Shown: positions 7,255 through 23,081 of the stretch, piece by piece | Position numbering within the stretch: position 1 is the stretch's first letter | How the letters are laid out: each line of letters starts with the position of its first letter | DNA from: Chryseobacterium binzhouense | Lineage (GTDB): Bacteria; Bacteroidota; Bacteroidia; Flavobacteriales; Weeksellaceae | DNA: 64,000 nt | Direction: 5' to 3' | Assembly: GCF_007474545.1 (NCBI RefSeq) | Contig: NZ_VKOG01000001.1 | Location: 434,001-498,000 of the forward strand | Position numbers and translations under genes: made by a program | Notes under the pieces: generated by a model | What the model was told of the DNA's origin: nothing | Database searches by the model: none | Seen by the model: the letters and a program-made list of their open reading frames with translations, nothing else

Positions 7255-9390
7255 ATGAAGAAAGTTTTGGTGTGTGTATCTATTTTGGGTACAGTTGCAG
7301 CAACTGCACAGGAAAAAGATTCTGTAAATGCAAAGAATATTGATGAAGTAGTTGTTACCGGATATTTGTCAAAAGACAGCCAGTCTGCCAACAAAATGCC
7401 TTTGAAAGATATTGAGAATCCGCAGGTTTACAATACTGTAAATAAAAATGTAATCAAAGAGCAGGTGGTGACCAATTTTAATGATGCCTTGAAGAATGTT
7501 ACCGGAATTACAAGGCTTTGGGAGTCTACAGGAAGAGGCAACGACGGAGGAGAATTTTATTCAATGAGGGGATTTTCTTTACAGCCCAACCTTATCAATG
7601 GAATGCCGGCTTTTAATAACGGAACACTAGATCCTGCCGGAATTGAAATAATTGAAGCTATAAAAGGACCTTCAGGTACATTGTATGGCGGAAGCGTAAT
7701 TTCTTATGGCGGTCTTCTGAATGTTATTACTAAAAAACCGTATCATTATTTCGGGGGAGAAGTAGGCTACGTTACCGGAACTTATGGTCTGAATCGTGTA
7801 ACAGCAGATGTGAATGCTCCCGTTGCAAAAAATATGTTTGCAAGAGTAAATGCAGCGTATCAAAAACAAAATTCTTTTCAGGATGCAGGATACAGCGAAT
7901 CATTTTATGTAAATCCTTCCTTGAAGTTTATTGCTAATGATAGACTTACTTTCTTTATCAATACTGAGATTAAAAAATCTGATGCAGCCAATGCTCCCAT
8001 GATTTTCTTAAGCAGATACAGTCCGTTATCATTTAATTCTATTGATGTATTTGAGCAGAATTACAAAAAATCGTATACTTCAAATGATCTGAATATCAAA
8101 AACTCTACTTTCAATATTCAGGCACAGGCTCAATATAAAATATCCGATAACTGGACGTCAAGTACCATACTTTCCAGAGGAAATACTAAAACAGATGGTT
8201 ACTACCAATATTTATGGGATTCTTCCAACGGGAATGAGTTTACAAGATTTATCACGAAGGCTTACGGAGAAACCAATACAACAGGAATTCAGCAGAATTT
8301 TGTAGGAAACTTCAATATCGGAAGCGTAAAAAACAAACTTTTATTCGGATTAGATTACTTGCAAAGAGAATTTTTGATTGGAGGAACGGGCTGGACAGGT
8401 TTCGGAACAATTTCTTTAATAAACCAAACCGATACGTCTTTTCAAAAGTTAAATAAATCTGCTGTAGATAATGCACTTGCAGGAACCAATCAGGAAATAA
8501 ATACAATGACGGCACAGATTTACAGTGCGTACGTTTCAGATGTTGTGAATATACTTCCTAATTTATCTGCAATGTTAAGTTTAAGACTTGATCATTTTAC
8601 AGGAAACCCTACAGCATTTGCTACGGAAGAATCTGAGCCTACTACCACTTTGTCTCCAAAATTAGGATTGGTTTATCAGCCGATAAAAGATAAGGTTTCA
8701 GTTTTTGCAAACTACATGAACGGATTCCAGAATGTTGAGCCGCAACTGGTTCAGTTTACAGATCAAACCGGAAATGTTACCGGACAGGAAGTCCGCTATT
8801 TTACTCCGGAACAGGCGAATCAGTGGGAAGTGGGAACTAAAGCAAGCTTAATCAAAGATAAACTATCTATTACAGCGAGTTACTACGATATTAAAGTTAA
8901 AAACAAATTGATGGGAACAGGTCCTGATATAAGTCAGGGAGGAGAGGTAGAAAGTAAAGGTTTCGAAATAAGTGTTGTTGGTAGCCCGATTGAAGGATTA
9001 AATGTTATTGCAGGATTCAGTTCAAATGACAGCAAAGTGGTTGCAGGAGATGATACTTATGTAGGGTACAGACCTGAAGAAGCTGGACCAAGAAATATTT
9101 TTAACTTTTGGACTAACTATAAAATCCAGCAGGGAGTTCTGAAAAATGTAGGAATTGGTTTTGGAGCCAATTCTGCAAGCGAATTATATACATTAAACAG
9201 AGCGGCAGTCGGTACTTTTGCAATTCCTAGTTATGCTGTTTTCAATGCGGCATTGTCTTATAATGCTGAAAAATATTCAGTAATAATGAAACTGGACAAT
9301 ATTGCCAATAAAAAATACTTTACAGGATGGTCTACAGTAACTCCGCAAAGACTAAGAACATTATCTCTAAGTTTAAATTATAAATTTTAG
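7255..9390 (+). CDS. TonB-dependent siderophore receptor
   Basis: An outer-membrane beta-barrel that imports a ferric-siderophore-type ligand using TonB energy. The order is: signal peptide (MKKVLVCVSILGTVAATAQ), a TonB-box-like segment (IDEVVVTGY), a plug domain at about 40-170 (NVTGITRL, FYSMRGFSLQPNLINGMPAF, IEIIEAIKGPSGTLYGG, GGLLNVITKKP), then a 22-strand-type barrel ending in the aromatic terminus LSLNYKF. It lacks the N-terminal carboxypeptidase-like domain of SusC proteins and fits the FhuA/ferrichrome-type siderophore class. The ATG at 7255 gives the signal peptide; the TTG at 7234 overlaps the promoter box. The PepSY gene downstream is the usual partner. The ligand cannot be read from sequence. 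Confidence 0.92.
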   Translation: MKKVLVCVSILGTVAATAQEKDSVNAKNIDEVVVTGYLSKDSQSANKMPLKDIENPQVYNTVNKNVIKEQVVTNFNDALKNVTGITRLWESTGRGNDGGEFYSMRGFSLQPNLINGMPAFNNGTLDPAGIEIIEAIKGPSGTLYGGSVISYGGLLNVITKKPYHYFGGEVGYVTGTYGLNRVTADVNAPVAKNMFARVNAAYQKQNSFQDAGYSESFYVNPSLKFIANDRLTFFINTEIKKSDAANAPMIFLSRYSPLSFNSIDVFEQNYKKSYTSNDLNIKNSTFNIQAQAQYKISDNWTSSTILSRGNTKTDGYYQYLWDSSNGNEFTRFITKAYGETNTTGIQQNFVGNFNIGSVKNKLLFGLDYLQREFLIGGTGWTGFGTISLINQTDTSFQKLNKSAVDNALAGTNQEINTMTAQIYSAYVSDVVNILPNLSAMLSLRLDHFTGNPTAFATEESEPTTTLSPKLGLVYQPIKDKVSVFANYMNGFQNVEPQLVQFTDQTGNVTGQEVRYFTPEQANQWEVGTKASLIKDKLSITASYYDIKVKNKLMGTGPDISQGGEVESKGFEISVVGSPIEGLNVIAGFSSNDSKVVAGDDTYVGYRPEEAGPRNIFNFWTNYKIQQGVLKNVGIGFGANSASELYTLNRAAVGTFAIPSYAVFNAALSYNAEKYSVIMKLDNIANKKYFTGWSTVTPQRLRTLSLSLNYKF

Positions 9391-9437
9391 AACAAAAATA
9401 CTTTGAGTAAAAGAAGTTTTTTATAAAATACATTCTG

Positions 9438-9463
9438 AGCCAGGCTTTTTACAGCTTGGCTTT
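9438..9463 (+). terminator. Hairpin between receptor and PepSY genes (weak terminator or processing stem)
   Basis: Stem agccaggc (9438-9445) with gcttggct (9454-9461), one G-U pair, loop of 8 nt, and only a short T-run. It may attenuate read-through into the PepSY gene rather than stop transcription. Confidence 0.4.
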
Positions 9464-9486
9464 GTGCGTTTAATTCAATAGTAGAA

Positions 9487-16482: not shown

Positions 16483-17706
16483 ATGTATTCAATTATAGAT
16501 ATAGAAAGTAATGGTGCAGGTTTCAGAAAAGAATGCATTATAGATATTGCCATTTATCGCTATGATGGTCAGAAAATTGTAGACCAGTTTATCTCTTTGG
16601 TAAATCCTGAGAGTGATATTACCCCTTTTGTGCAAAAACTGACCGGAATTACTCCAAAAATGGTAAAAACTGCTCCAAAATTTCATGAATTGGCAAAAAG
16701 AGTTGTAGAAATCACACAGAATACCACATTGGTGGGTCATAATATTGATTTTGATTACAGAATGCTCCGTCAATCATTCAGTCGACTTGGGTATGATTTC
16801 AAAATCAATACTTTAGATACGATACCCCTGGCTAAAAAGCTGATTCCTGATGAGGTAAGTTATTCACTTCAAAAATTGGTTAAATCTCTCGGTATTCCGC
16901 TTTCTAATGCTCATAGGGCGGAAGGTGACGCAAGAGCTACTTTAGAACTGTTCAAGCTTTTAATCTCAAAAGATACAGAAAACGAGATTATTCAGAAACA
17001 GCACGAAGAGACTAATGCTAAAAATTATATCAACAAAATCAGAGAGTTAACTCAGGATCTGCCTAACGAAAAAGGATTTGTATACTTTCAGAACGGAGAC
17101 GGAAAAATTATTTTTTCGGATTACGTGCAGGACATCAATAAGTTTTCTAAAAAGCTGTTTAATTCCAAATCCAAAAAATGGGAAATAATACAGCGGGATG
17201 TGGAACAGATTCATTTTGAACTTACAGGCTCGGATATTATTGCCAAATTGATTCTAAATTCTAAAGGAATTAAAAAAAGGGAAGTGTTTCCATTCGGACT
17301 GTATTTCAGAAATCAAAAGTATATTGTAGAGAAAAATAATTTAAACAAAACCGAAAAACCGATTCTCAGATTCAAAGCATTTACGCAAGGCACAAAAGCT
17401 GTTCAGTTTATTAAGCTTCTTGAAGAATGGAAAGATCCTGAAAATCTTAAATCTAAAATTGATTTCAGAAAAAGAAACGAACTTTGGCTGGGAACGGGCA
17501 GAAAGCTTGGCGAAAAATTATTTATCATCGTAGAAAACGGAAAGCCTGTTTCGTATGGTTTTTATGAACTTTTTACCCAGATTCAGACGATGAGCAAAAT
17601 TTCAAAACTGAAAATTGATCTGCCGCTTCCCGTCACAGATCTTATCAATGACCTGCAGCTCGCTTTGCTTCGCAGTGATTTTGAAACACTTCCGCTGCCA
17701 AAATAA
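16483..17706 (+). CDS. DEDDh 3'-5' exonuclease (DNA polymerase III epsilon-like) with C-terminal extension
   Basis: Residues 1-165 form an RNase-T/DnaQ-type exonuclease: Exo I IIDIESNG (D6, E8), Exo II HNIDFDYRML and Exo III HRAEGDARAT give the DEDDh residues. It should remove nucleotides from DNA or RNA 3' ends. The remaining 240 residues match nothing I recognise confidently. They contain basic segments and motifs such as KGFVYFQNGDGKIIFSDYV, so they might form a nucleic-acid-binding module of the sort attached to DnaQ domains in Bacteroidota. At 407 residues it is larger than a plain epsilon subunit. The Exo I second acidic position is followed by SNG rather than TTG, a mild departure. Confidence 0.82.
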   Translation: MYSIIDIESNGAGFRKECIIDIAIYRYDGQKIVDQFISLVNPESDITPFVQKLTGITPKMVKTAPKFHELAKRVVEITQNTTLVGHNIDFDYRMLRQSFSRLGYDFKINTLDTIPLAKKLIPDEVSYSLQKLVKSLGIPLSNAHRAEGDARATLELFKLLISKDTENEIIQKQHEETNAKNYINKIRELTQDLPNEKGFVYFQNGDGKIIFSDYVQDINKFSKKLFNSKSKKWEIIQRDVEQIHFELTGSDIIAKLILNSKGIKKREVFPFGLYFRNQKYIVEKNNLNKTEKPILRFKAFTQGTKAVQFIKLLEEWKDPENLKSKIDFRKRNELWLGTGRKLGEKLFIIVENGKPVSYGFYELFTQIQTMSKISKLKIDLPLPVTDLINDLQLALLRSDFETLPLPK

Positions 17707-17751: not shown

Positions 17752-17759
17752 TATTTTTG
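17752..17759 (+). promoter_or_regulatory. -7 promoter box TATTTTTG of the lysA leader transcript
   Basis: Exact TAnnTTTG match. Transcription from here would start around 17765 and produce a leader of about 145 nt that includes the small ORF at 17778 and the hairpins before lysA. Confidence 0.55.
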
Positions 17760-17777
17760 CAGAAATTAAACAGAGCA

Positions 17778-17849
17778 ATGCAGAATTTTAAACAAAATAA
17801 AACCGGAAAAAAGGGAACTGTAAAGTTCTCTAAGGTTTGGAATATTTAA
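17778..17849 (+). CDS. Putative Lys-rich leader peptide of lysA
   Basis: A 23-codon ORF starting at ATG 17778 and stopping at TAA 17847. It begins MQNFKQNK and ends KVWNI. Lysine is at codons 5, 8, 11, 12, 16 and 19, six of 23, far above a typical protein. It lies 18 nt after an exact -7 box and ends exactly where an antiterminator arm begins (17848). This geometry fits a leader peptide whose translation senses lysyl-tRNA charging. Alternatively, the GTVKF string inside it recalls the start of cold-shock proteins, so it could be a decayed csp fragment. AT-rich DNA also favours AAA codons by chance. Confidence 0.55.
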   Translation: MQNFKQNKTGKKGTVKFSKVWNI

Positions 17850-17911
17850 AAGAGTAGCTTGCATAAAATAATCATTGCGGCAGACTCTTTTTTAAGAATC
17901 TGTCGTTTTTT
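17813..17911 (+). promoter_or_regulatory. Attenuator before lysA: pause hairpin, antiterminator and terminator
   Basis: Four elements are visible. (1) A small stem within the leader ORF, gggaac (17813-17818) with gttctc (17825-17830). (2) An 8-bp perfect pairing aaaagagt (17848-17855) with actctttt (17884-17891). (3) A competing stem cggcaga (17878-17884) with tctgtcg (17899-17905), one G-U pair, extended internally by tctt/aaga (17886-17889 with 17894-17897). (4) A run of six T at 17906-17911 directly before the lysA ATG. Helices 2 and 3 share bases 17884-17889, so they exclude each other. A ribosome at the leader stop would cover the 17848 arm and favour the terminator. A ribosome stalled on a Lys codon would leave the arm free and favour lysA expression. 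Confidence 0.6.
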
Positions 17912-19129
17912 ATGTCAAAAAATAAAATTATGAATTCAAAAGATTTACTTAAAATTGCCAATGAATTTGGTACACCGTTGTATGTATACAATGCAGACTC
18001 GATAAAAGCACAATACGAAACACTTTCTTCGTCATTTTTAAAACACACCAAGTTTTTTTATGCTGCCAAAGCTTTAACGAATATCAATATATTAAAGTAC
18101 ATCAAAAATTTAGGAGCTTCGTTGGATTGTGTATCCATCAATGAAGTAAAATTGGGTTTAAAGGCAGGATTTCCAAAAGAAAAAATTCTTTTCACGCCCA
18201 ACTGTGTAGATCTTGCTGAGATTGAAGAAGCGATGCAGTATGGCGTTCACATCAACATCGACAATATCTCTATTCTGGAGCAGTTCGGGAACAAATACGG
18301 AAATTCTTATCCGATTTTTGTCAGAATCAATCCGCATATTTATGCCGGTGGAAACCACAAAATTTCTACAGGACATATTGATTCAAAATTTGGTATTTCA
18401 ATTCACCAGATGCGTCATATTGAAAGAGTGATGAAATCAACCAATCTGAATGTAGAAGGGCTTCATATGCATACCGGAAGTGAGATTAAAGATCCGGAAG
18501 TTTTCATTCAGGCATTGGAAATTATGCTGGATCTGGCTGAACATTTTCCGAATCTGAAATATCTTGATATGGGAAGCGGATTCAAAATTCCTTATCAGGA
18601 CAGTGAAATGGAAACAGACGTAAAAACTTTAGGAAAGAAAGTAGAAAAAGTACTCTCCGAATATGCCAAAACAGCCGGAAGAAAATTTGAGCTATGGTTT
18701 GAGCCCGGAAAATTTTTGGTGGGAAAGAGCGGATATCTTCTGGTAAAAGCAAATGTTATCAAACAGACCACCGCAACCGTTTTTGTAGGAGTAAACTCAG
18801 GATTCAATCATCTGATCCGTCCTATGTTTTATGATTCTTACCATGAAATTGAGAATTTATCCAATCCGAAAGGGGCCGAAAGAATTTATACTGTTGTAGG
18901 AAATATTTGTGAAACCGATACTTTTGCATGGGACCGAAAACTGAATGAGGTAAGAGAAGGTGATATTCTGGCTTTCCATACTGCGGGAGCCTATGGTTTT
19001 GAGATGAGTTCTAATTTTAATTCAAGACTTAAGCCTGCGGAAGTTTTATTTTTGGATGACAAAGCACATTTAATCAGAAAAAGAGACGAGTTTGAAGACT
19101 TACTGAGAAATCAGATTGAAGTCTTATAA
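17912..19129 (+). CDS. lysA: Diaminopimelate decarboxylase
   Basis: A PLP-dependent alanine-racemase-fold enzyme that decarboxylates meso-diaminopimelate to lysine, the last step of lysine synthesis. The PLP lysine is K53 in FYAAKALTN. Other signatures are GHIDSKFGI, the HMHTGSEI loop, GSGFKIP, FEPGKFLVG and the substrate-binding CETDTFAWDR near the C-terminus. Length (about 400) is normal. Two in-frame ATGs are possible, 17912 and 17930 (MNSKDLL). The first sits directly on the T-run of the attenuator, so initiation at 17930 is quite possible. It appears monocistronic, with a strong terminator after it. Confidence 0.93.
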   Translation: MSKNKIMNSKDLLKIANEFGTPLYVYNADSIKAQYETLSSSFLKHTKFFYAAKALTNINILKYIKNLGASLDCVSINEVKLGLKAGFPKEKILFTPNCVDLAEIEEAMQYGVHINIDNISILEQFGNKYGNSYPIFVRINPHIYAGGNHKISTGHIDSKFGISIHQMRHIERVMKSTNLNVEGLHMHTGSEIKDPEVFIQALEIMLDLAEHFPNLKYLDMGSGFKIPYQDSEMETDVKTLGKKVEKVLSEYAKTAGRKFELWFEPGKFLVGKSGYLLVKANVIKQTTATVFVGVNSGFNHLIRPMFYDSYHEIENLSNPKGAERIYTVVGNICETDTFAWDRKLNEVREGDILAFHTAGAYGFEMSSNFNSRLKPAEVLFLDDKAHLIRKRDEFEDLLRNQIEVL

Positions 19130-19259: not shown

Positions 19260-19742
19260 ATGAAAACATTAACATTTTTACTAGCCTTAATCACTGCCAA
19301 TCTTACTTATTCTCAGGTTTTAGATGAAAGAGACGATTCTTTTATGATGGAAAATAATAAAAATTTGCTGAAAATTGATATCAAAGAACCTTTCATGCAG
19401 GTTGCCATAAAAGGATGTTCCGATTTCAAACCGGCGAGTTTTGAAGGTGGAGCAGCCGCATACAAAGAGATATTGAGAAAATACATGTATACATTTCTGA
19501 ATTCCGATTTTTATACATTAACGGGCGATTTTACTTTTACACTTACTATTGATGCGATGGGCAAAGTGATTGATATTGCAGGAGATCCAAAGGTGCTGAA
19601 CAGTGAAATTTTTTTTGATGACATGCAATATGTTGTAAGAAGAATTAAAACAAATTGGACACCCGCAATGTGTAACGGAGAACCTGTAAAATCTGAAATG
19701 AAATTAAAAATGAATTTCTCATCTTTGTCATCTGATATGTAA
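19260..19742 (+). CDS. Small secreted TonB-C-like protein (paralogue 1 of 3)
   Basis: 160 residues with a signal peptide (MKTLTFLLALITANLTYSQ). The mature part has the pattern of a TonB C-terminal-like domain: a FEGGAAAYKEIL opening, the strand block GDFTFTLTIDAMGKVIDI and the NWTPAMCNGEPVKS turn equivalent to the W-P-A-x-x-N-G-x-P motif of TonB proteins. It lacks the inner-membrane anchor and proline-rich spacer, so it is not an energy transducer of the usual form. Two related genes follow on the same strand, the next 2 nt downstream. Function unknown. Confidence 0.72.
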   Translation: MKTLTFLLALITANLTYSQVLDERDDSFMMENNKNLLKIDIKEPFMQVAIKGCSDFKPASFEGGAAAYKEILRKYMYTFLNSDFYTLTGDFTFTLTIDAMGKVIDIAGDPKVLNSEIFFDDMQYVVRRIKTNWTPAMCNGEPVKSEMKLKMNFSSLSSDM

Positions 19743-19744
19743 AG

Positions 19745-20158
19745 ATGATAAAGTACTTTGTGATGATATGTTTTCTGTTAGGCTTTAAAAGTTATTCGCA
19801 GGAAACAAGGGTAGACTCTGAAAATTCTGTAACATATAAAAGTGCAGAGTTTCCGGGAGGTGACGGTGCATTTTCGAAAGAGTTTTTAAAAATGATTCAT
19901 GCATATATTGACTTGGGTTTGTATGCGGTGAACGGTAAATTTGTTTTCACGTTTGATGTTGATGAAAATGGAAAAGTAATCAATCTCAAAGTTTTACCTA
20001 AAGTTAAAAACAGTGAAATGTTCATAGAAGATATGCAGTTTGCAATGAAGAAAGTAAAGAAGAAATGGAAACCGGCTATCAGAAATGGGAAGCCTGTACT
20101 ATCACAAAAAATAATCAGTATTTATTTTACGTCAGATTATTTTGATCATGGAGATTAA
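19745..20158 (+). CDS. Small secreted TonB-C-like protein (paralogue 2 of 3)
   Basis: 137 residues. A signal peptide (MIKYFVMICFLLGFKSYSQ) precedes a TonB-C-like domain: SAEFPGGDGAFSKEFL, GKFVFTFDVDENGKVINLKV and KWKPAIRNGKPVLSQ. It is clearly related to the product of the gene ending 2 nt upstream, sharing the order EGG/PGG - strand block with GKVI - W-P-A-NG-P. The two are translationally coupled in all likelihood. The EFPGG motif is the same one seen in the TonB-C tail of the M56 protein at 57659-59092. Function unknown. Confidence 0.75.
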   Translation: MIKYFVMICFLLGFKSYSQETRVDSENSVTYKSAEFPGGDGAFSKEFLKMIHAYIDLGLYAVNGKFVFTFDVDENGKVINLKVLPKVKNSEMFIEDMQFAMKKVKKKWKPAIRNGKPVLSQKIISIYFTSDYFDHGD

Positions 20159-20225
20159 TCTTTTATCTTTTTAATAAAAAATCCTATTTTAGCTGTTGTT
20201 AATTTAGAATAGCTATTTTTTTGAT

Positions 20226-20915
20226 ATGAATAAATTTTTTGTTTTAGTTGGTCTGTCTATTACATCATTTTTTAATACTCAGGTTTTATATGATGATAAT
20301 ATTAAAGGATATGAAGGAGGCTCTGAACAGTTCTATGCTGATTTGAATGATGCTTTAGTTAAAAATGGTTTTGAAAAATGTAATAATAGGATGTCTGAAA
20401 TGTTTGTGGCAAAAGTTGAAATTATCGAAGGTATTGCTAGAATAAACAACAAGAATATTCTAGATGATTGCGCAACACAATGGTTTATTAAAGGATTTAA
20501 TAATATCAATAAATTAAAAAAATGGAGGTATGCAGATGGAAATTTAAATAAATTTTCTATAACATTTTATCCAATTGATTACGGAAAAAATTTTATGAAA
20601 GGCTATACTCCAGAAAAGCTTGTAAAAAATGCTGAGTTTCCCAGTGGAACGATTGCTTTTAGAAATGCACTATTTGAAAAATTAAGAAATCAGAATATTA
20701 ATCTTAAAGATTTACAAATTGTTGTCACTTTTACCATTAACAAAGAAGGAGATTTAAATAATATCATTGTAGAAAAACCACAAAATTTAGGATTAGATTT
20801 AAAAAGTAAAATTATCAAATCGATAGAACAAATTAATACGAAATGGAAACCGCAATCTTTTCGAAATATTCCAGTGTCCTCAAGATTCAGAATTCCAATA
20901 ACATTCAAAGGTTAA
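20226..20915 (+). CDS. Secreted TonB-C-like protein (paralogue 3 of 3, longer)
   Basis: 229 residues, starting with a probable signal peptide (MNKFFVLVGLSITSFFNTQ). Two related halves can be seen. The first (about 25-120) begins YEGGSEQFYADLNDAL. The second (about 135-229) begins AEFPSGTIAFRNALFEKL and continues with IVVTFTINKEGDLNNIIV and KWKPQSFRNIPVSSRFRIPI, the TonB-C-like pattern of the two preceding genes. It is 67 nt beyond the second paralogue. It may be a tandem-domain version of the same family. Function unknown. Confidence 0.72.
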   Translation: MNKFFVLVGLSITSFFNTQVLYDDNIKGYEGGSEQFYADLNDALVKNGFEKCNNRMSEMFVAKVEIIEGIARINNKNILDDCATQWFIKGFNNINKLKKWRYADGNLNKFSITFYPIDYGKNFMKGYTPEKLVKNAEFPSGTIAFRNALFEKLRNQNINLKDLQIVVTFTINKEGDLNNIIVEKPQNLGLDLKSKIIKSIEQINTKWKPQSFRNIPVSSRFRIPITFKG

Positions 20916-22619: not shown

Positions 22620-23081
22620 ATGAAAGATTTACAAAATACACCACTTTTAAATACGATTTCTGCATTATTAGAAAATGCCAGAAAGAGTGTTGTTGTTGCT
22701 GTAAATCAAACAATGGTTCTGACCTATTTTGAAATTGGAAAAACAATTGTAGAAGACGAGCAAAATGGAGAATACCGTGCAGAATACGGAAAAACGCTCC
22801 TAAAAGATTTGTCTTTACATCTTACGGAAAGATTTGGAAAAGGGTTCTCGGTAGAAAACCTTGATAGAATGCGATTTTTCTATAAAACTTATTCTGAACA
22901 AATTTCGTCAACACTGTTGACGAATTCTTCAAATACAATTTCCCAGACACTGTCTGTAAAATTCAATCTTTCATGGTCTCACTATTTAAAATTAATGAGA
23001 ATAAAAGACCCTAATGAAAGAAAATTCTACGAAATTGAAAGTTATAAAAATAACATAAACAAGATTTTATTAACATTTTAA
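22620..23081 (+). pseudogene. Truncated DUF1016/YhcG-type PD-(D/E)XK nuclease gene
   Basis: The 153-residue product matches the N-terminal domain of the DUF1016 family (YhcG): LLENARKSVVVAVNQTMVLTYFEIGKTIVEDEQNG, YGKTLLKDLSLHLTERFGKGFSVENLDRMRFFY, and SWSHYLKLMRIKDPNERKFYEIE. Full members are about 340-380 residues and carry a C-terminal PD-(D/E)XK nuclease domain. Here the frame departs right after the FYEIESYKNN position and stops (INKILLTF), and the nuclease half is absent. The next gene starts 9 nt later. It is best read as a remnant; a stand-alone DUF1016_N protein is possible but less likely. An adjacent palindromic repeat suggests a rearrangement site. Confidence 0.75.

Follow-up and report, generated by a model that had tools for sequence, protein, structure and literature searches.

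The subject of this analysis is the leader of lysA in a 64,000-nucleotide (nt) stretch of Chryseobacterium binzhouense DNA (assembly GCF_007474545.1, contig NZ_VKOG01000001.1, positions 434,001 to 498,000), here called the window and numbered from its first letter. The leader lies between an exonuclease-like gene (16483-17706), its upstream neighbour, and lysA, coding for diaminopimelate decarboxylase (17930-19129, forward strand), the gene proposed to be under control. Judged from the sequence and its comparison with relatives, the leader is very probably a ribosome-mediated transcription attenuator, which would couple lysA transcription to the supply of lysyl-tRNA. This assignment is supported by the parts, their conservation, the mutual exclusion of two helices and the geometry; from these we infer that the polymerase pauses, that ribosomes stall, that transcription terminates in the cell and that the switch responds to lysine.

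The proposed course of events is as follows. RNA polymerase would start downstream of the -7 box and would probably pause after a hairpin inside the leader open reading frame (ORF). A translating ribosome would melt this hairpin and thereby free the paused polymerase. If lysyl-tRNA is scarce, the ribosome would wait at a Lys codon, the last of which, Lys19, lies just behind the hairpin. The front edge of the stalled ribosome would remain short of 17848, and 17848-17855 could pair with 17884-17891; formation of this antiterminator would block the terminator, and lysA would be transcribed. With plentiful lysyl-tRNA the ribosome would reach the stop codon and cover 17848-17855. The terminator (17878-17905) would then form and transcription would end at a run of six T (T6).

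All parts of this attenuator, which had been described by the first-pass annotation, were read back base for base in the window sequence, and the anatomy is confirmed as real and beyond chance. The -7 box of the leader promoter is TATTTTTG (17752-17759; forward strand, as are all features of the leader) and is of the Bacteroidota TAnnTTTG type. The leader ORF, MQNFKQNKTGKKGTVKFSKVWNI, extends from ATG 17778 to TAA 17849 and comprises 23 codons, six of them for Lys. By composition, six Lys among the 22 sense codons after the start are weak evidence when taken alone (binomial tail about 0.006-0.010); the Lys richness is settled by its conservation. Stabilities were calculated for pieces of the leader folded alone, with z-scores against 200 shuffles each. 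For the pause-type hairpin inside the ORF (5' arm 17812-17819, 3' arm 17824-17831) -9.7 kcal/mol was obtained (z -4.7, 0/200 shuffles as good). Its 3' arm ends one base before the AAG codon of Lys19 (17832-17834), the proposed decisive control codon. The antiterminator consists of AAAAGAGT (17848-17855), which overlaps the leader stop codon, and ACTCTTTT (17884-17891), which is partly common with the terminator (-12.3 kcal/mol, z -3.1, 2/200 shuffles as good). The 8 base pairs first proposed are present, but the helix is actually longer, with additional inner GCU/GGC and GCA/UGC pairs above them. The terminator is formed by CGGCAGA (17878-17884) and TCTGTCG (17899-17905), followed by T6 at 17906-17911 (-14.3 kcal/mol, z -4.6, 0/200 shuffles as good). 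Bases 17884 and 17886-17889 are common to both helices. For the whole 148-nt leader the fold z-score was -4.0.

The gene was identified as lysA by TIGR01048 (393.6 bits, cut-off 297.9) with the protein read from 17912; read from 17930, it matched PF02784 and PF00278. The T run had been placed directly at lysA. T6 stands where it was described, whereas the gene start was corrected. Most likely lysA starts at ATG 17930 and not at the in-frame ATG 17912, because the sole in-frame ATG near the start maps to 17930, which is residue 7 of the 17912 reading, in 80/80 Chryseobacterium loci.

These loci were the best 80 of 572 confirmed lysA loci of the genus. A 23-codon leader with a near-identical peptide was found at 71 of them. 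Together with the window, Lys5, Lys11, Lys12 and Lys19 are Lys in 72/72 leaders, while Lys8 is replaced by Gln in 11/72. Among the 76 g1 leaders counted (genera carry g-number codes below), 11 were without Lys8, and ten of these have Lys7 instead. For the codons of Val20-Trp21-Asn22 (GTT TGG AAT, 17835-17843) one synonymous change was observed in the 72 leaders, though they stand behind the hairpin; the GTT of Val20 may close a lower stem. The remaining nine loci are leaderless (L004, L015, L033, L053, L062, L065, L068, L072, L080). Their -7 box starts 39-49 nt before the LysA match start, and a terminator in the 300 nt upstream of lysA was found in none of the nine. At these loci a plain promoter replaces the switch.

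Altogether 161 lysA upstream regions were examined, namely the 80 of Chryseobacterium and 81 further ones. The latter came from three sets: 30 genomes representing 29 family genera (LysA in 23), 119 genomes of the order (LysA in 63, the best 30 places being used) and 30 more family genomes (LysA in all 30). The family is Weeksellaceae according to the labels of named g1 loci in the tree. A Lys-rich leader core with the ORF hairpin, an antiterminator arm at the ORF end and a terminator within 60 nt of lysA was detected in 101/161 regions, including that of the window, with a search motif that was written after the sequences had been seen. Of the leader-to-terminator sequences 95/101 are distinct, and they belong to seven genera of Weeksellaceae: g1 (76/90), g26 (10/16), g9 (8/8), g7 (2/2), g11 (2/7), g24 (2/2) and g27 (1/1), with 0 in the others. 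At the 16 order-level loci outside the family no leader core was found, and the element was present at 0/5 lysA loci in g35, which belongs to the same order and may be Flavobacterium. In the further genus g14, MPTLSSKQIKISKKGIKPFSKDFVLS stands ahead of lysA. Furthermore, in a motif-free check ORFs of 12-50 codons were accepted if they ended 20-85 nt ahead of a terminator, whether or not they contained Lys. Such ORFs occurred at 102 loci of the family; in 101 the Lys core was present, and the remaining one (L147) has a different ORF. Outside the family the check returned four loci with unrelated ORFs. Thus, instead of the lack of conservation that had been named as the finding to speak against the proposal, the opposite was seen: the leader recurs in Chryseobacterium, diverged leaders occur elsewhere and, as set out below, the alternative helices covary.

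The covariance model R1 found one place each in 132/247 family genomes at an E-value of 0.001 or better, among them a chance match in G025 (E 1.1e-4), which lies at the end of another gene in a genome with no LysA match. Among 295 genomes sampled from the class, only the window's own match was returned, under stricter filters by which weak relatives may be missed. In the window's genome R1 matched only the lysA element (E 1.7e-19). A second gene under the same control was considered; the next match (E 0.55, 9331-9464) appeared by eye to be an ordinary terminator. Relocated leaders were likewise dismissed: in G120, G142, G233 and G234 second matches to the FSKVWN pattern read SSPFSKVWNFME with no adjoining LysA, and the match at L135 has neither a leader ATG nor LysA. 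The remaining leaderless genomes were covered by the pattern and model searches only.

Conceivably, the hairpin and T run could simply terminate the upstream exonuclease gene, or belong to a small independent transcript or protein gene, with no regulation of lysA. The terminator is indeed strong, and its action would set free a small leader RNA. However, in 100/101 loci a conserved TAnnTTTG box separates the leader from the upstream gene, beginning 24-37 nt before the leader ATG (2.2% in the shuffled control; the exception, L052, reads TAGTACTTTTAC). A box of this type also occurs 15-90 nt before the LysA match start at 25/44 leaderless family loci. The terminator lies within 60 nt of lysA at 101/101 leader loci, but at only 1/44 leaderless family loci (L159). 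Anywhere in the upstream 300 nt it was found at 3/44 of the latter (L147, L159, L162), and at 8/60 leaderless loci when those outside the family are included (3 family, 5 outside). The terminator is thus restricted almost to leader loci, and the presence of one goes with that of the other. In addition, the alternative helix covaries, and LysA-coding sequence was present at 39/42 loci hit by R1, the others being two chance matches (L222, L224) and a contig end (L244). Hence, a terminator unconnected with lysA is highly improbable.

The geometry of the switch was examined with a masking calculation, in which the front edge of the ribosome was assumed 12 nt past the first A-site base; in g11 and g27 the codon taken as the last core Lys was chosen manually. 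In the window the calculated stability of the antiterminator depended on the codon in the A site: -12.7 kcal/mol with Lys19, -9.6 with Trp21, -4.6 with Asn22 and -1.7 with the stop codon. Averaged over the 101 loci, it was -11.5 kcal/mol when the last core Lys codon occupied the A site versus -1.3 with the stop codon, and the helix was weaker at the stop by at least 3 kcal/mol in 101/101. By this computed geometry, a ribosome at the control codon would leave the arm free and one at the stop codon would hide it, as had been proposed. In ribosome-free folding, the ORF hairpin is predicted before the 3' arm of the terminator exists in 100/101 loci, and the antiterminator (probability P over 0.5) in 88/101. 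At equilibrium the terminator wins in 98/101. An antiterminator that forms early and a terminator that wins at equilibrium together indicate a kinetic switch. The computed spacing between the last Lys codon and the arm is mostly 12-20 nt (15 nt in 40/76 g1 loci, 18 nt in 6/10 of g26). Six g1 loci are outliers with 4-7 nt, as are 7/8 g9 loci with 10 nt and both g11 loci with 11 nt; in these the duplex program placed the arm start before the stop. In the two g11 leaders (L149, L216) the stop codon lies further downstream and the arm falls inside the last codons of the ORF; the five other g11 genomes examined are leaderless.

The sequence features by which an attenuator is recognized are thus present, as the annotation had stated: a putatively translated ORF with Lys codons before a lysine gene at 101/161 loci, a predicted intrinsic terminator between the two, an antiterminator excluding it (weak in 13/101) and a fitting ribosome geometry. 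The design, called classical there, is not the three-way one of trp and his leaders. In those the antiterminator (2:3) has to compete with the pause hairpin (1:2); such competition was not found here, as 17812-17831 and 17848-17855 share no bases. In the untranslated pre-terminator fold of the window, the ORF hairpin and the antiterminator form together. An untranslated leader should therefore read through.

The leader peptides differ between genera, yet keep Lys codons around the hairpin. Examples are MKVQKSIKKDASKGKKFFSKANSVD and MTAKKSIKKFATKGKKLSTKANIVH in g26, MSAVVTFKKVSSKGKKHFFKGISVT in g24 and MNAILKIKSTSSKGKKHFPKAKKWSYSKELQ in g11. The leader of g27 ends with MKKGSKKFSKKPV, in a longer frame that has no ATG and perhaps starts with TTG. 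L220 carries MNRSSAAPMISLAGKKFSSKKPGAN, with only 4 Lys. Additional leaders were read from model hits at 40 loci (L223-L262), some from genomes that are also in the Chryseobacterium set. A peptide was obtained from 38; the exceptions were the chance match L224 and, by the criteria used, L233. Lys stands behind the hairpin in 37 of these 38. AAG accounts for 297/597 Lys codons in the 101 leaders versus 14% of 242 in eight genes of the window. This excess is only partly explained by the hairpin, and a role as slow codons is possible.

Peptide conservation could also point to nascent-peptide arrest, in which the conserved GKKG..KFSKVWN itself would stall the ribosome, perhaps with free lysine as ligand, and control the same terminator. 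Its core is almost invariant within g1 and g9, with Val-Trp-Asn unchanged in 72/72 leaders and kept in the 8 of g9. Across genera, however, the residues around the Lys codons vary freely (KANSVD, KGISVT, KKPV and KAKKWSYSEELQ before the stop), while most Lys positions and the hairpin stay. Moreover, much of the core conservation is explained by the hairpin, which is encoded in synonymous codons. When the core was recoded synonymously with local codon usage, 0/1000 variants of the window hairpin folded as stably, and at most 44/1000 were as stable in 13/17 usable representatives (18 rows, that of L063 being omitted as the wrong stretch was matched). The result was weaker for L220 (0.16), L152 (0.30), L218 (0.07) and L216 (0.07). 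Since the hairpin is encoded in codon choice, part of the peptide conservation in Chryseobacterium reflects RNA structure. Peptide arrest is thus improbable, and sensing of lysyl-tRNA through the Lys codons is preferred.

Covariation was examined in an alignment (A1) of 31 sequences picked by hand from the 101. For hairpin and terminator 95.4% of the cells held standard pairs versus 87.5% in shuffles, with 40 double-change cells versus 15.8; for the antiterminator the values were 89.1 versus 86.5% and 14 versus 5.7. In each of the four comparisons 0/500 shuffles were as good. Sliding the antiterminator partner lowered the pairing to 33-61%. Two antiterminator pairs, 98/143 and 100/141, are doubtful, with 7 and 9 unpaired cells, respectively. 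Column 145, corresponding to 17884 in the window, is A in 10/12 g1 rows and 4/4 g9 rows and mostly G elsewhere. With its antiterminator partner (97/145) it forms UA in 15, CG in 12, UG in 2 and other combinations in 2 of the 31 sequences; with its terminator partner it forms AU in 17, GC in 7 and GU in 7. Base 17884 therefore covaries with both alternative partners, as is predicted for mutually exclusive helices. Together with the common bases, this bears out the exclusion proposed from the window. The mean z-score against shuffled 3' arms was -3.1 over the 101 loci.

Several observations weigh against an attenuator of this kind. The element is missing from 44 family loci examined. Lys is found directly behind the hairpin in 101/101 leaders (93 AAG, 8 AAA), a count that is partly built in because the search motif required Lys at this place. 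In L239 (genome G143), read from a model hit, Glu stands there (MIISKSIKQVASKGKKFFSEDNFVD / SKGKKFFSEDNFVD) and the last Lys is four codons earlier; Lys19, claimed as the control codon, is thus near-universal but not wholly so. Lys16 is Arg in 11/72 Chryseobacterium leaders and in all 8 of g9. The antiterminator stays below P 0.5 in 13/101 loci, with both g24 loci among them (0/2 reach P 0.5 in g24, 6/10 in g26), and in L213 it gave only -5.7 kcal/mol in the masking calculation. The shuffles of the covariation test ignore relatedness, so that kindred sequences can beat every shuffle with no structure at all. Pair and pair-type counts were near those of the shuffles (54 and 61/500 for hairpin and terminator, 196 and 214/500 for the antiterminator), and pair 97/145 is a C-A mismatch in L202 and L152. 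When arms were swapped among 15 representatives, cognate arms gave -11.1 versus -9.7 kcal/mol for swapped ones, a modest difference (permutation p 0.002), and the cognate partner ranked first in only 1/15. This test is weak because the arms are partly conserved between lineages. Apart from these points, L239 offers a natural variant of the proposed control codon.

The leader is scattered patchily over a LysA tree of 78 rows, which were selected from the family loci. At least 17 changes are required, 9 of them forced by well-supported branches, and near neighbours such as L141 and L194 differ in leader presence. The anatomy common to the leaders suggests one old element that was lost many times; the bootstrap of the tree had not converged, and gain or transfer is also possible.

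The control of lysine genes is usually told via the L-box riboswitch, and attenuating peptides via Trp, His, Leu, Phe, Thr and Ile. When a trp leader is not translated, it over-terminates. The lysA leader resembles the trp and his attenuators of enterobacteria, as passages of PMC1183508 describe them, in its leader ORF with control codons, its pause-type hairpin, its exclusive antiterminator and terminator and in the decision by ribosome position. The same passages describe a race between ribosome and polymerase, in which the ribosome sets the paused polymerase going again, and they name the choice of codons as important. In contrast to trp and his leaders, the lysA leader would use lysine, and its early hairpin, which has no bases in common with the antiterminator arm, should not release the terminator.

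A riboswitch that binds lysine, of the L-box kind or new, would offer another explanation. In parts of PMC12925634 the L-box is described as controlling lysine genes in some other phyla and as binding lysine directly; the likeness to the lysA leader lies in the 5' RNA control of lysine genes. However, RF00168 (L-box) was found in 0/39 relatives including the window's genome, with 4/14 control genomes positive. Nine weak Rfam matches between 16500 and 19500 do not overlap the leader, and visual inspection showed no conserved core resembling an aptamer apart from the ORF, the hairpin and both alternative helices. A riboswitch is hence scarcely probable at all. The Bacteroid-trp RNA motif (RF01692) is likewise a cis-regulatory RNA of Bacteroidetes (Table 1 of PMC2864571), but by its name it concerns a different gene, and there is no Rfam match on the lysA leader.

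The first-pass annotation was not aware of a described case in Flavobacteriia. This does not hold for attenuation as such. In its main text, PMC9723704 presents strong indications of attenuation by leader peptides ahead of amino-acid operons in Flavobacterium psychrophilum, a member of the same bacterial class, with the same general mechanism proposed from transcript data; pheA and hisG are separately named among the conserved 5' elements. The term lysA is absent from that main text. The novelty is therefore limited to lysine and lysA, and this part of the claim appears to stand as far as the literature was searched: a lysine attenuator was not among the literature matches listed, and an earlier prediction in subscription literature is possible. 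Taken further, the element would be the first lysine-specific ribosome-mediated attenuator, a family-wide lysyl-tRNA sensor of Weeksellaceae that replaces the L-box at lysA, has two states, reads through by default when untranslated and has given way to a plain promoter many times. To this full reading we give a little better than an even chance.

Elsewhere in the window, lysA is followed by three consecutive small ORFs (19260-20915) that look alike by eye; one of them matches TonB_C (PF03544, E 1e-5), the other two are without a Pfam match. The ORF at 22620-23081 codes for 153 amino acids; its match is confined to the N-terminal domain of DUF1016 (PF17761, E 3e-37). The protein ends after this domain and may be truncated.

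To our knowledge, little is known of RNA regulation in this phylum. If the proposal is true, a conserved attenuator for Lys, placed at the final step of lysine synthesis, would close a gap among the attenuated amino acids. The divergence of the leaders provides a natural series, in which the peptide and the helices vary but the Lys codons and their distance to the antiterminator stay mostly constant, so that the required geometry could be read from evolution. From the separated hairpin it is predicted that removal of the leader start codon would raise lysA expression and not lower it. Finally, near neighbours with and without the element would make it possible to test how much the cell gains from it.

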